A DNA stretch of 64,000 nucleotides, taken from positions 3,534,001 to 3,598,000 of the forward strand of contig NZ_CP136600.1 in assembly GCF_032911225.1 (NCBI RefSeq), read 5' to 3'. Made by a program: the position numbers and the translations under genes. The DNA comes from Thalassotalea fonticola (GTDB lineage Bacteria; Pseudomonadota; Gammaproteobacteria; Enterobacterales; Alteromonadaceae). Positions 28,943-63,952 of the stretch are shown piece after piece (position 1 is the stretch's first letter; each line of letters starts with the position of its first letter). The notes under the pieces were generated by a model. It saw only the letters and a list, made by a program, of their open reading frames with translations, was not told where the DNA came from and searched no databases.

Positions 28943-30409
28943 ATGAAAAACTTAGATCGTCGTAATTTTCTCAAAGGAGCTGCACAATCTGCAGCCCTTG
29001 TTGGCTCAGCAGCAGTAATTGGCGGCTGTGCCAAAGCCAGTGCGCAAAAGTCATTTCCCAAGGCACAAGGTGCCACTGTTATGGGCCTTACAGTACCTAA
29101 AATGGACGTAGTTCGTGTCGGTTTTATTGGTGTAGGTCAACGTGGTAAAGGCCATGTTAAACATTACTGTCATCTTGAAGGTGTGGAAATTAAGGCTATT
29201 TGTGATAGCGACACGCGAGTAATTGACCGTTCAGTAAATTATGTTGTTGAACAAGGCTTTGCAAAACCTGACGTCTACACAGGCTCAGAGTACGCATACC
29301 GTAAAATGTTAGCACGACAAGACATTGATATTGTGATCATCTCAACTCCTTGGAAGTGGCATACGCCAATGTCGGTAGAAACCATGGAAAGCGGTAAACA
29401 TGCATTTGTAGAAGTACCGGCGGCTACTACCCTTGAAGAATGTTGGCAATTGGTTAACACCGCAGAGCGTACGCAGAAAAACTGTATGATGATGGAAAAT
29501 GTTAACTACGGTCGTGAAGAGTTAATGGTACTTAATATGGTACGCCAAGGTTTATTTGGTGACTTATTGCATGGTGAAGCGGCTTACATTCATGAGCTTC
29601 GTTGGCAAATGAAAGAAATAGATCAAAAGACAGGCTCATGGCGTACTTACTGGCATACTAAGCGTGATGGAAACTTATATCCAACACATGGCTTAGGTCC
29701 AGTTTCACAGTACATGAACATTAACCGTGGTGACCGTTTTGATTATGTTACCTCAATGAGTTCTCCTGCTCTTGGTCGCGCCGAATATGCGAAAGAACAA
29801 TTCCCTGCTGATCATGAACGTAATAAATTAACCTTTACTGCTGGTGATATGAATACCAGTATCATCAAAACAGTAAAAGGCCGTAGCATCATGGTACAAC
29901 ACGATACCACCAGTCCACGCCCGTACAGTCGCCATAACTTAATTCAAGGCACTAACGGTACCTTTGCCGGTTTCCCAAATCGCGTTGCGGTAGAAGATGC
30001 ACCAGATGCCATTAAAGCGGTATACGAAAAAGAATATCAACAACAAATGACTGACTGGAAAGCGAGTGGCAAAAAAGGCCGTAAGCCGCGTAAACCAAGT
30101 TTTCATAGCTGGGATCAGGACATGGATAAATGGTATGACGCCTATGATCATCCGCTGTACGTGCGCATGGGTGAAGAAGCCAAGAAAAATGGTGGCCATG
30201 GCGGCATGGATTTCTTGATGATGTATCGTATTGTGTATTGTTTACGTAATGGTGAGCCACTAGATCAAGATGTTTATGATGCAGCAGCATGGTCTGCAGT
30301 CTTCCCTACGAGTATGGCGTCAGTTGCCGATAGAAGTAACAGTAAAGACATACCAGACTTTACTCGTGGCGTGTGGGAAACAGCAAAACCGTTAGGTGTT
30401 GTGGCTTAA
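28943..30409 (+). CDS. GH109-type alpha-N-acetylgalactosaminidase (Gfo/Idh/MocA family), Tat-exported
   Basis: A 488-residue protein with an N-terminal D-R-R-N-F-L-K-G twin-arginine signal and a hydrophobic stretch ending near G-G-C, so it is folded with its cofactor before export and may be lipidated. The Rossmann domain begins [15 protein letters not shown] (near residue 56), followed by the [12 protein letters not shown] segment (near 250) typical of GH109 enzymes, which use NAD in a retaining mechanism to remove terminal alpha-GalNAc. It is the first gene of a group with a DUF3472-like lipoprotein and a sulfatase. Other exported Gfo/Idh/MocA proteins are possible, but the domain pattern favours GH109. 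Confidence 0.8.
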
Positions 30410-30427
30410 TCGCATTAGCGAAAACAC

Positions 30428-30478
30428 ATTGTAAAAACTTAAAATGCATATGGATGTGCATTTTTACAATTATTTTTA
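30428..30478 (+). terminator. hairpin terminator after the GH109-type gene
   Basis: The inner stem AAAATGCA (30441-30448) with TGCATTTT (30457-30464) can be extended by ATTGTAA with TTACAAT, followed by TATTTTTATT. It may only attenuate, because the next gene on the same strand starts 52 bp later. Confidence 0.65.
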
Positions 30479-30530
30479 TTGCATATCTCATCATTTCAAC
30501 AAGCAAGTCAATTAAGGTAGTCCTATTAAA

Positions 30531-60573: not shown

Positions 60574-60600
60574 AGGCACTTAATCATAAATTAAGTGCCT
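60574..60600 (-). other. hairpin between the beta-galactosidase and sulfatase genes
   Basis: Perfect 10-bp arms AGGCACTTAA (60574-60583) and TTAAGTGCCT (60591-60600) with a 7-nt loop, 16 bp beyond the beta-galactosidase stop. No U-run follows, so partial termination or differential mRNA stability is more likely than a full stop. Confidence 0.55.
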
Positions 60601-60616
60601 GTTGATGGTATTTTCT

Positions 60617-63600
60617 TTACAGTTTTTTACTTAACTTAAGTAATGCGTCTATATTGGCTTTTGTTACTGGCATCAAGGTGAAGCCGTAACTGATAGTTTG
60701 GTTGGCATAATCTAGGTAAGCCTTTTCAGGTTTGGCTCCCCAACTGTTGTTACCACCGACTCCGCGATTCATTTGATCAATATTTAACTGCACTAAATCT
60801 TGTTCAACAATATCTACCGTGTGCTTACTTAAATCACCAACAAGTTCACCTTTGTCGTTGTATTTATGATGCTGATTACGATTGATACCCTTGTATTCAA
60901 GGCTGTTAGTAATATCAAAATCTTCGTTCGGTGTATGTAAAGCGCTGAACCCGATAGGTGCGTTTATATCTTTACTAACAACAAGCAAACCATCACTTGA
61001 TTCGTTAGTAAGTGCCAACCAACGAACGTCAGTTTTATAACCGTTTTCCTGTGGTCTTATATAAGGTACGTATTGCTCGGCTACTGTTGAGTGATAAAGA
61101 TCAACGAATGCTGAAGCTTTTCTGTCCTGATAGTTTTCCCAAGGCCCACGACCAAAATAGCTTAAATTACTGTACTGCTTAGCCAGTTGCATACGCATAC
61201 CAAATCGCGGTAAATCGGATTTTTCTTTGGTTGCAGCTAAGGTATTTTTAACACTAACTTGTCCATTAGCGTAAATGTCATACACTGTGGTTGCGCTAGT
61301 GTTAATACCCGGCAGTTGGTAAGTAGCAGTTACTTGGTAGTTATCACCTACTTTTTTGTGTGACAATTTAGTTAGTGATTGTTGCAGCGTTGCTTCTTTC
61401 CAATTGATATTTTTATACATCATTTTACTACCAACATCATTGTCGGTAGGTGCTCGCCAGAAGTTTAATTGAGGTCCTTGCTCGTCATTCAACAACTCTT
61501 TGCCTTGATGTTGGTACGATACAATTTGTCCGTTGCTCTTGTTTATTACTAGCTGTAATTGCGAAGAGGTGAACGTAACTTGCTGTTTTGTTTCGGCCAA
61601 ATTCAATTTGCCACTGTTGTTGTCTGCAATTTGTGTGGTGTGAGTTAGTTGTTTCAATGCCACTTGTTCACGAGCTACTTCAAAACCTTTGTTTAGCATG
61701 CCCCAGTCTTTATTTAATCGTGCCGAAAAGTGCAAAAAGTACTCGGTATTTGGCTTGGCATTAATCGCAGAAATATCTAAGTTAATTACCTTGTTTTGAT
61801 GTGGAGCCAATGAAATTTGGTCTAAGTCAATGGTTTCAACAACGAGTCCATCAGCTTTTATTTCAGCACTAAGGGTAAAATCTTTCAGGTTGGTGAAGTC
61901 ATAAAGGTTTTCCAACAAAACTTTAACGGATTTGCTGTCTTGTTGTTCAACTTTAAAGTTTATGTACTCGTGCGCTTTACGCACTTCATATAAACCCGGT
62001 TGCGGCGTACGGTCTGGGAATACAATACCGTTATTTAAAAATGTATTGTCGGTTGGTACGTTTTCACCAAAATCACCACCATAGGCGTAGTATTTATTGC
62101 CATTCTCGTCGGTCTTCCAAATTGACTGGTCAACCCAGTCCCAAATGAAACCACCTTGCAGGTTGTCATATTGCTCAATTATGTCCCAGTAATCCTGGAA
62201 GTTACCGGTACTGTTACCCATTGCATGAGCGTATTCACTCGGGATATACGGGCGATCACCTGGATTTTTACCTTCTTTTAAAAATCGGTCAACGCTTGGG
62301 TACTGAGGTACAATAATATCGGTATTTCTATCTCGAACTGCGCGCTCATATTGCACAGGGCGTTTACTGTGGTCAAAAGCTTTTATCGCGTCGTAACCGT
62401 CATGAAAATTCACCCCATTACCGGCCTCGTTACCCAGTGACCAAATAATCACTGATGCGTGGTTTTTGTCACGTTCAACCATGCTCATAATACGATCTAA
62501 ATGAGCTTTACCCCAGTTAGGCTTTTTCGCTAATGAATGCTCGCCATAATACATACCGTGCGATTCAATGTTTGCTTCATCGACAACGTATATGCCATGT
62601 TTATCGGCGAGTTTATAAAACATTTCAGGTTGTGGGTAGTGGCTTAAACGGGCCGCATTAATGTTATTTTCTTTCCACATACGGATGTCTTTTTCAATCA
62701 ATTCTGCAGTGATCACATGCCCGGTATCTGGATTATGTTCTTGCGTATTAACGCCTTTTAACGTCACGCGAACGCCGTTTACTAACAATAAACCGTCTTT
62801 AATTTCAACACTGCGAAAACCAATACGGTTACTGGTGGCTTCTAGAGTCGTGCCTTTATCATCTTGCAATTCTAGTACTAAGGTGTACAGGTTAGGATGT
62901 TCGGCGCTCCAGGATTTAACGTTTTCAATAGTGGCATTGAAGTTTTGTAGACTGGCTTGCTGCTTTATGCTGATATCTTGCTTGCCAGTGGCCACGACTT
63001 TTTGTTGCTCGTCGATAATTTTATAATTTACGTTAACGGCTTGATTAGCCGATAAGTGATTTTTCAAATCAACGGTTAAAGCAAACTTACCGTGTTGGTA
63101 ACTACTGTCTAATGTAGATGTTACTTGAAAATCTTGGATACGAATTTTCGGCTGTGCATAAACACTTACACTACGCTCTATACCAGAAATGTCCCAAAAA
63201 TCTTGATCCTCTAAATAAGCGCCATCGGTCCAGCGATAAACCTGAATAGCTAGGGTGTTTTTCCCTTCCTTGGCAAATTTTGACAAGTTAAACTCTGCCG
63301 GCGTTTTACTGCCTTGTGAATAGCCCACGTAATTGCCATTTAACCAAACAAAACCGCCGGATTTCATGCCATCAATTTTTAGGAAGGTTTCTTTTTCTAA
63401 CCAGTTTTTCGGCAAGTTAAAATCTTGTCGGTAAGAGCCTACAGGGTTGAAATCCATAGGTACTTTACCTGGATGTTTAGGCACGGCGCCGATGTGTTCC
63501 ATTTCTGTTGATAATGGCGCTTTTTTATCGGCAAACGGGTAGGCATGGTTGGCGTATAAAGGTAAACCATAGCCTTCAACTTCCCAGTTACCTGGCACTG

Positions 63601-63952
63601 TGATGTTATCCCATTGGCTAACATCGAATTCAGGCTTGAAAAAATTTAATGGCCGTTGCCCAGGGCTTTTTGCCCAATGAAATTTCCATTGACCGTCGAG
63701 CAGTTGATGAAAGCTGGCGGCACTAATGTCGTCATTGATTGCTTTAGCTACTGAGCTATACGAGGTAAAAGAGGCACGAGCGTCTTCTTTGTGTTCATTA
63801 ATAAGCTGCTCATTCGAAATATAGTGTTTTACTTGCTCGATTGAAAAATCACCGGCTAGACTTGCTGTATTAGTCTCTTTACTGGTATTTTCACAAGAAA
63901 ACAATAATGAACTTATTGTTGCTGCTAGGAATATTTTTTTATAGTTGGACAT
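60617..63952 (-). CDS. GH2 beta-galactosidase (LacZ-like), lipoprotein
   Basis: Probably an exo-beta-galactosidase. A 1111-residue protein with a lipobox (L-L-F-S-C, near residue 20), so membrane-anchored, unlike cytoplasmic LacZ. Domains in order: jelly-roll sugar-binding, Ig-like, TIM barrel and Ig-like, then a C-terminal beta-sandwich as in E. coli LacZ. The acid/base is E509 in W-S-L-G-N-E-A-G, and the nucleophile is E573 in P-S-E-Y-A-H-A-M-G. It heads the minus-strand operon with two sulfatases, an EF-hand protein and two metzincins. Galactose released could enter by the symporter at 12308. The promoter lies at or beyond the window edge. Confidence 0.9.

Follow-up and report, generated by a model that had tools for sequence, protein, structure and literature searches.

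The 64,000-nucleotide stretch of the genome of Thalassotalea fonticola, probably a marine species, considered here (contig NZ_CP136600.1; below, the window) contains sulfatase, glycosidase and peptidase genes that, with a probability of roughly 0.7, form about the left half of a ~78-kb AgaR-controlled regulon for the degradation of sulfated, N-acetylgalactosamine (GalNAc)-linked, mucin-like O-glycoproteins. The sequence-only reading had described the genes as one functional unit, and this is well supported by a common AgaR-type operator and by the linkage of a GH109 gene, the GalNAc catabolic (aga) genes and an M60-like peptidase gene (M60L) in other genera. The aga operon inside the unit supports GalNAc, through which mucin-type O-glycans are attached to protein, as a main product. 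Two points support a protein-linked substrate: the operator is shared by peptidases from O-glycopeptidase families, and there is a Bacteroides thetaiotaomicron (B. theta) precedent in excerpts of PMC11992087.

Putative shared operator

The study genome (G000) is one contig of 4.9 Mb. The operator was derived from the agaZ upstream regions of this genome and of two others, G161 and G335, as CGAAA-N6-GAAAG, and refined to the direct repeat YGAAAG-N4-YGAAAG. Both the refined form and the span considered (77,986 bp, genome 3,560,261-3,638,246, 1.59% of the genome) were set after matches had been seen, and transcription units were inferred by a 150-bp gap rule.

The first form has nine exact matches in the genome, five of them in the locus (binomial P = 1.2e-7; four of eight without the agaZ discovery site, P = 4.3e-6). 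For the refined form, five of the six exact genome matches lie in the span (P = 6e-9; 3.2e-7 when the discovery site is left out), as do 14 of the 91 matches with at most one mismatch (P = 2.3e-10). All 14 are intergenic by our gene list, with intergenic DNA making up 15.2% of the span. When the same halves are spaced by N5, none of the 84 matches falls in the span, and the other spacings from 1 to 9 yield 0-1 exact and 0-5 near matches there. The reversed pattern is about equally frequent genome-wide (106, vs. 91 for the operator); thus, the enrichment of the operator is local.

If a site between divergent units is counted for both, sites with at most one mismatch lie within 500 bp upstream of 15 of the 19 inferred units, 38 of the 44 genes and nine of the ten sulfatases. 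The units with a site include those of M60L, of the ImpA-family peptidase and of three metzincin-like proteins (MZ1, MZ3, MZ4); the genes of the latter three and of ImpA lie in inferred operons headed by site-bearing sulfatase genes. In the literature consulted on AgaR, we found no published sequence of its operator. The window sites are as follows.

26415..26430, minus strand: operator-like site, one mismatch, between the genes of a 1248-aa (amino acid) protein and a Sel1-repeat protein
26713..26728, plus strand: operator-like site in the same intergenic stretch, matching the first form exactly and the refined form with one mismatch
28682..28697, minus strand: operator-like site, one mismatch, 245 bp before GH109
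28830..28845, plus strand: operator-like site, exact, 97 bp before GH109
33951..33966, plus strand: operator-like site, one mismatch, 202 bp before the gene of a 512-aa protein
46960..46975, minus strand: operator-like site, one mismatch, in the promoter region between the divergent M60L and S1_8-MZ1-HePIG-ImpA units

GalNAc catabolic genes and regulators

The right-flank operon AgaZ-AgaS-ROK kinase-AgaA-GMC-gluconate-dehydrogenase-subunit was recognised by Pfam and NCBIfam scans, which covered the genes of the window and of its right flank apart from two EF-hand-like open reading frames (ORFs), L003:13136-13969 and the small ORFs in L002:7305-11276. AgaZ (TIGR02810, 624.2 bits vs. a cut-off of 568.8) and the NagA-type deacetylase AgaA (TIGR00221, 299 vs. 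225.65) exceed their cut-offs; AgaS scores 456 bits for its family, under the cut-off of 529.2, and the ROK kinase stays below every cut-off, its best match being NF009835 (286.4 vs. 380). Two DeoR-type regulators, at 312.8 and 310.6 bits, lie above the NF040755 AgaR cut-off of 260.

A reconstruction of the aga/AgaR regulon reportedly exists for Shewanella. The likeness to the E. coli regulon, as given in excerpts of PMC3668189, consists in an AgaR-family repressor and agaZ, agaS and agaA, whereas the regulon predicted here extends, unlike the proteobacterial one, to extracellular peptidases and many sulfatases.

Conservation in other genomes

Among 394 genomes of the order, M60L was found in three (E <= 1e-20): G000, G161 and G335. 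Each copy is preceded by an operator-like site, 51 bp (one mismatch), 35 bp (exact) and 79 bp (one mismatch) before the first start codon, respectively.

Outside the study genome, 21 places have GH109 matches of at least 500 bits, of which we examined ten (nine genomes, stretches of 6 to 40 kb). In two of them, G161 and G335, both of other genera in the same family, GH109 adjoins agaZSKA-GMC-G2DH3, and AgaR-type genes, TonB-receptor matches and the gene of a DUF3472 protein are close by; the block in G161 also includes M60L (55%), and the G335 region a GH2 match (42%). The 40 kb of G161 contain four exact operator sites and the G335 aga region two, vs. no exact and four one-mismatch sites in 12 other stretches (316.6 kb in total). 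As to the synteny search suggested along with the sequence-only reading, G161 and G335 keep the linkage of GH109, aga and M60L in part, but in their GH109/aga regions not that of the sulfatases, ImpA and metzincins.

Glycosidases and sulfatases

The glycosidase and sulfatase genes of the window, and a lipoprotein gene that accompanies GH109, are as follows.

28943..30409, plus strand: GH109, alpha-N-acetylgalactosaminidase-type, with a twin-arginine/lipobox-like start (PF21252, Glyco_hydro_109_C, 206.7 bits, cut-off 27)
30531..31841, plus strand: DUF5077+DUF3472 lipoprotein, in one inferred unit with GH109 (PF11958, 337.9 bits; PF16871, 62.5 bits)
31858..33408, plus strand: S1_15-like sulfatase (6S-Gal/GalNAc type; Gal, galactose), CTPSR motif, lipobox (best PDB 7ozc, BT3109, 577 bits; 7oze, BT1624, 559.5 bits)
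44994..46889, minus strand: S1_8-like sulfatase with a HEAT-like tail, CSVAR motif (best PDB 9bba, S1_8C, 510 bits)
57581..59056, minus strand: S1_16-like sulfatase, CAPTR (best PDB 9fo1, kappa-carrageenan sulfatase S1_16, 318.7 bits)
59060..60535, minus strand: S1_20-like sulfatase (3S-Gal/GalNAc type), CAPTR (best PDB 7ana, BT1622, 404 bits; 7an1, BT1636, 350 bits)
60617..63952, minus strand: GH2 LacZ-type beta-galactosidase with GH2 domains and Bgal_small_N, lipobox LFSC by eye

Both features of GH109 membership, Glyco_hydro_109_C and an NAD-binding fold, are present, and the best PDB matches are 6t2b (GH109 protein 2) and 2ixa (alpha-N-acetylgalactosaminidase). Homologues of the DUF5077+DUF3472 lipoprotein (42-43%) are encoded near GH109 and aga in both G161 and G335. 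GH2 scores 988.9 bits for NF052611, slightly below the cut-off of 999.

All ten sulfatases of the locus exceed the PF00884 cut-off. The active-site motif of S1 sulfatases is C-x-P/A-x-R, and eight of the ten match it, the S1_8-like enzyme and R_S1b (CNVSR; L002:3316-4827) having valine in the third position; in the S1_8C chain a serine (a C-to-S mutant) is aligned with the cysteine of the S1_8-like sulfatase. For the S1_15-like enzyme the start at ATG 31858 is favoured over TTG 31825. The four window sulfatases were typed by the nearest solved relative, with PDB names taken from excerpts of PMC10154620. If family specificity holds (excerpts of PMC10154612 and PMC12549532), the 2-, 3-, 4- and 6-O-sulfates of galacto sugars would all be covered. 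For two of the four, the closest enzymes of solved structure are thus from B. theta, belonging to S1_15 (BT1624, BT3109) and S1_20 (BT1622, BT1636) (excerpts of PMC10154612, PMC10154620); according to the same excerpts, the B. theta mucin sulfatases are scattered over at least four polysaccharide utilisation loci (PULs), whereas here S1_15 and S1_20 types occur together with S1_8- and S1_16-like sulfatases whose closest relatives are carrageenan enzymes.

Peptidases

Six peptidases are candidates for attack on the protein part.

38282..40357, minus strand: ImpA-family metalloprotease, lipobox, HEIGH (NF038322, 649.7 bits, cut-off 250; PDB 5kdv, 7jtv IMPa)
41446..44952, minus strand: MZ1, HExxHxxGxxH (lipobox; He_PIG, pro, catalytic, Big_9 and LamG domains)
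47027..48958, plus strand: M60L, ricin-B lectin, M60-like_N and Peptidase_M60, HELGH (PF13402, 144.8 bits, cut-off 25.8)
49447..52350, minus strand: MZ2, HExxHxxGxxH
52720..55029, minus strand: MZ3, divergent, HExxHxxGxxH
55040..57151, minus strand: MZ4, predicted ADAM-type pro and catalytic domains, Big_9, LamG, HExxHxxGxxH

M60L is the only Peptidase_M60 match in the study genome; the ImpA-type protein scores 17 bits for PF13402, under the cut-off of 25.8. ImpA relatives are more widespread (53 of the 394 genomes, G000 included), and in the four neighbourhoods examined in other genomes no aga, GH109 or sulfatase matches were seen. The family likeness to Pseudomonas aeruginosa IMPa (5kdv and 7jtv) rests on the NCBIfam and PDB matches across the helical and catalytic part. 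The IMPa chain has 891 residues and the protein here 691; the match starts at residue 277 of the former, so that the N-terminal part is missing here. Unlike that of IMPa, the gene follows a sulfatase gene in an inferred operon.

The metzincins, taken by the sequence-only reading for four related proteins, all carry Big_9 and LamG domains. Three are indeed close, and MZ3 is divergent (identity to MZ1: MZ2, 53%; MZ3, 30%; MZ4, 63%). Folded alone, the pro and catalytic part of MZ4 is predicted to form a prodomain and a metzincin fold like that of the ADAM17 zymogen. The closest structures are the ADAM17 zymogen (PDB 8snl, 9o54) and snake-venom metalloproteases, at 13-14% identity. In contrast to ADAM17, MZ2-MZ4 have no cysteines and MZ1 only that of its lipobox, while the Big_9 and LamG tail is a feature of the MZ proteins. 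The signature of ADAM/adamalysin (M12B) proteases is HExxHxxGxxHD, whereas MZ1-MZ4 have W, Y, F and Y, respectively, in place of the aspartate after the third histidine. No M12B sequence family matched above its cut-off, only Reprolysin_5 appearing in MZ2 at 17.5 bits (cut-off 27). Jelly-roll lectin domains, from the binding parts of clostridial neurotoxins, arabinanase and sialidases, dominated a fold search with full-length MZ4; we ascribe this to the common LamG fold.

A word-based search of 5.8 billion proteins yielded 27 metzincin relatives. In named genomes, considering the best 80 of 277 confirmed loci, the top five (L005-L009) come from Planctomycetota metagenome-assembled genomes, the first with 44% identity over query 228-1166; many of the lower-ranked ones were set aside, as only Ig-like parts matched. 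The plasmid search gave 25 records, and among the ten listed none covers 80% of the query (maximum 23%). The metzincins thus appear to be a rare, uncharacterised bacterial family with a predicted ADAM17-zymogen-like fold.

Weighing of the alternatives

Several observations weigh against a regulon for sulfated mucin-like glycoproteins. GH109 is not beside an aga operon in eight of the ten places examined, and where it is, in G161 and G335, the surrounding ~20 kb contain no match to a sulfatase, ImpA or a metzincin; the sulfate part is hence not conserved with the core. One of the four exact sites of G161 lies inside agaZ, and in G335 M60L (L175:9901-11847) stands alone among genes that by eye are of housekeeping type, although with its own operator-like site, and looks like a transposed regulon member. 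In the study genome, the units MZ2-EF1, PGI-R_S1e, AgaR2 and OMP have no site with at most one mismatch within 500 bp upstream, the best MZ2 site having two mismatches. No sialidase or fucosidase families were met among the scanned genes of the window and right flank. Finally, the closest relative of the S1_8-like sulfatase is S1_8C, which acts on 2S-Gal of lambda-carrageenan (excerpts of PMC12549532). The S1_16-like one comes closest to a kappa-carrageenan sulfatase, its scores against the mucin-linked S1_16 enzymes BT3057 (7oz9, 165.9 bits) and BT3796 (7oza, 178.8 bits) being far below that for 9fo1. Sulfated mucin as the candidate substrate draws support from the S1_15- and S1_20-like sulfatases, nearest to mucin-locus enzymes, but not from the other two.

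If the locus served a sulfated algal galactan (carrageenan- or porphyran-like), with unrelated peptidases alongside, the two carrageenan-type relatives and the beta-galactosidases would be accounted for. In that case, however, GH109, the GH20s and the aga operon would have no obvious role, and the shared operator ties them to the sulfatases and peptidases. Moreover, no endo-galactanase family is found among the scanned locus genes, and all seven GH16 matches of the genome are elsewhere, so the use of algal galactans is likely handled there. This makes an algal substrate quite improbable. Four of the seven GH16 matches fall within 39 kb (genome 4,144,307-4,183,301), probably a separate polysaccharide locus.

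Alternatively, the substrate could be sulfated glycosaminoglycan proteoglycans of the chondroitin sulfate type, the peptidases freeing the core protein and GalNAc coming from the glycosaminoglycan chain. Chondroitin sulfate would also fit the GalNAc catabolism and the sulfatase families capable of acting on 4S- and 6S-GalNAc, and the GalNAc kinase of the B. theta PUL BT4240-50 serves chondroitin sulfate too (excerpts of PMC11992087). On the other hand, GH109 and GH2 seem ill-suited to a chain of glucuronic acid and GalNAc, and the scanned genes of the window and right flank include no polysaccharide lyase or unsaturated glucuronyl hydrolase families; a genome search for Lyase_8 gave no match, but no control genome matched either. 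We regard proteoglycans as an unlikely substrate.

Nor do we think it probable that the operator marks general GalNAc scavenging, the peptidases and metzincins serving ordinary protein nutrition or defence and sharing promoters by chance. The lack of a near site at MZ2 would agree with this, as would the 27 metzincin relatives, which come without genomic context and hence show no link to glycan genes. Yet none of the three genomes with M60L lacks an operator-like site before the gene, not even the one in which it is isolated, and MZ1, MZ3, MZ4 and ImpA belong to inferred sulfatase-headed operons with a site. Sulfated GalNAc-linked glycoproteins, e.g. animal mucus, fit best.

Comparison with BT4240-50

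According to excerpts of PMC11992087, BT4240-50 joins an M60-like O-glycopeptidase, located at the surface, with GH109 and GH2, which act on core 1 and Tn, and a GalNAc kinase. Here, too, an M60-like peptidase, GH109, GH2 and GalNAc catabolic enzymes lie together, all within ~78 kb, and outer-membrane import and the logic of core-1 glycoprotein processing are alike. The differences concern import, since in place of the SusC/SusD pair there is a TonB receptor of another type and no SusD among the scanned genes (a few small ORFs left out), and the GalNAc route, which involves a ROK kinase, AgaA, AgaS, AgaZ and AgaR here and an APH kinase with predicted extracytoplasmic-function (ECF) regulation there. 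Ten sulfatases, an ImpA peptidase, four ADAM-like metzincins and a size of ~78 kb further set the present locus apart. The APH kinase gene at window 3403-4398 might have encoded a GalNAc kinase like that of BT4240-50, but we discounted it, as it adjoins a DsbA gene in the manner of SrkA.

Extent of the locus and neighbouring genes

The inventory proposed from the sequence alone (four S1 sulfatases, GH109, GH2, an ImpA-family peptidase, a ricin-lectin/M60 peptidase and four metzincins) was recovered by Pfam and NCBIfam at the coordinates listed. The right end, in contrast, had been placed at 63952, which is the window edge: related genes run on to ~3,641,248 (genome), ~43 kb further. As to nearly all products having signal peptides or lipoboxes, signal peptides were judged by eye, and a simple regular expression for lipoboxes matched 7 of 19 products, missing the lipobox-like start of GH2. 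Besides the DUF5077/DUF3472 protein, the window has these additional members.

34169..37641, plus strand: three secreted proteins without a Pfam match (512, 450 and 179 aa), their genes forming a single inferred unit preceded by an operator-like site
40399..41364, minus strand: putative-Ig-repeat (Ig-like) lipoprotein (PF05345)
49056..49364, minus strand: small secreted EF-hand-like protein (ORF, by eye)
57224..57553, minus strand: small secreted EF-hand-like protein (ORF, by eye)

The EF-hand-like proteins, encoded within the inferred MZ2 and MZ4 operons, may aid calcium-dependent folding or secretion.

The right flank adds six further sulfatases, a second GH2 (DUF4982 type), two GH20, a PhoD-like phosphatase and a TonB-dependent receptor (TIGR01782, 434 bits). 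A secreted protein of 499 aa (L002:1706-3205, genome 3,599,706-3,601,205) contains HELTH and matches neither Pfam nor NCBIfam families; encoded next to a sulfatase and GH2 in one inferred operon, it is possibly a further undescribed zinc peptidase. The GH2 and GH20 genes are separated by ~4 kb without an ORF longer than 135 aa (L002:7305-11276), and glycosyltransferase and O-antigen genes start further right, beyond the locus.

To the left lie the genes of a secreted 1248-aa protein (window 22514-26260, minus strand), which has Asp-rich repeats and a short hydrophobic tail terminating in RKK, and of a Sel1-repeat protein (27129-28604, plus strand). The intergenic stretch between these genes carries two operator-like sites, and both genes may belong to the regulon. 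The Gal operon (window 8850-16018: LacI, galT, galK, symporter, galE, galM) was rejected as a regulon member, as window 1-22500 contains no operator match; it is plausible as a galactose sink.

Proposed mechanism and implications

In the model we favour, a GalNAc-derived signal would lift AgaR off the YGAAAG-N4-YGAAAG operators, jointly switching on peptidases, sulfatases and sugar catabolism. The exported peptidases, secreted and at the surface (M60L, the ImpA-type protein, four ADAM-like metzincins), would cut the protein backbone, while the S1_15-, S1_8-, S1_16- and S1_20-like and the six right-hand sulfatases would remove from Gal and GalNAc the sulfates that would otherwise hinder the glycosidases. 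GH2 and GH20 would then take off beta-Gal and beta-N-acetylhexosamine, GH109 would free the core alpha-GalNAc, the TonB receptor would import the products, and AgaK, AgaA, AgaS and AgaZ would channel GalNAc into central metabolism.

Our searches, limited to open-licence papers, found no marine or AgaR-controlled locus of such make-up. The locus is a coherent, well delimited unit, probably for mucin/GalNAc utilisation, and new in its much enlarged size, its shared operator and its rare metzincin family. More tentatively, and with somewhat less than even confidence, we suggest that one sugar signal, GalNAc, acting via AgaR runs a whole glycoprotein-foraging programme comprising O-glycopeptidases, rare secreted ADAM-like proteases and 2-, 3-, 4- and 6-O-sulfatases for Gal and GalNAc, and that the metzincins are a new protease family for sulfated O-glycoproteins.

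Within the literature searched, there is little gene-level description of how sulfated animal mucus is broken down outside the gut. The locus offers a testable regulon model, with one operator and one inducer, tying O-glycopeptidases and sulfatases to GalNAc use, and the metzincin family may become a tool for studies of sulfated glycoproteins.

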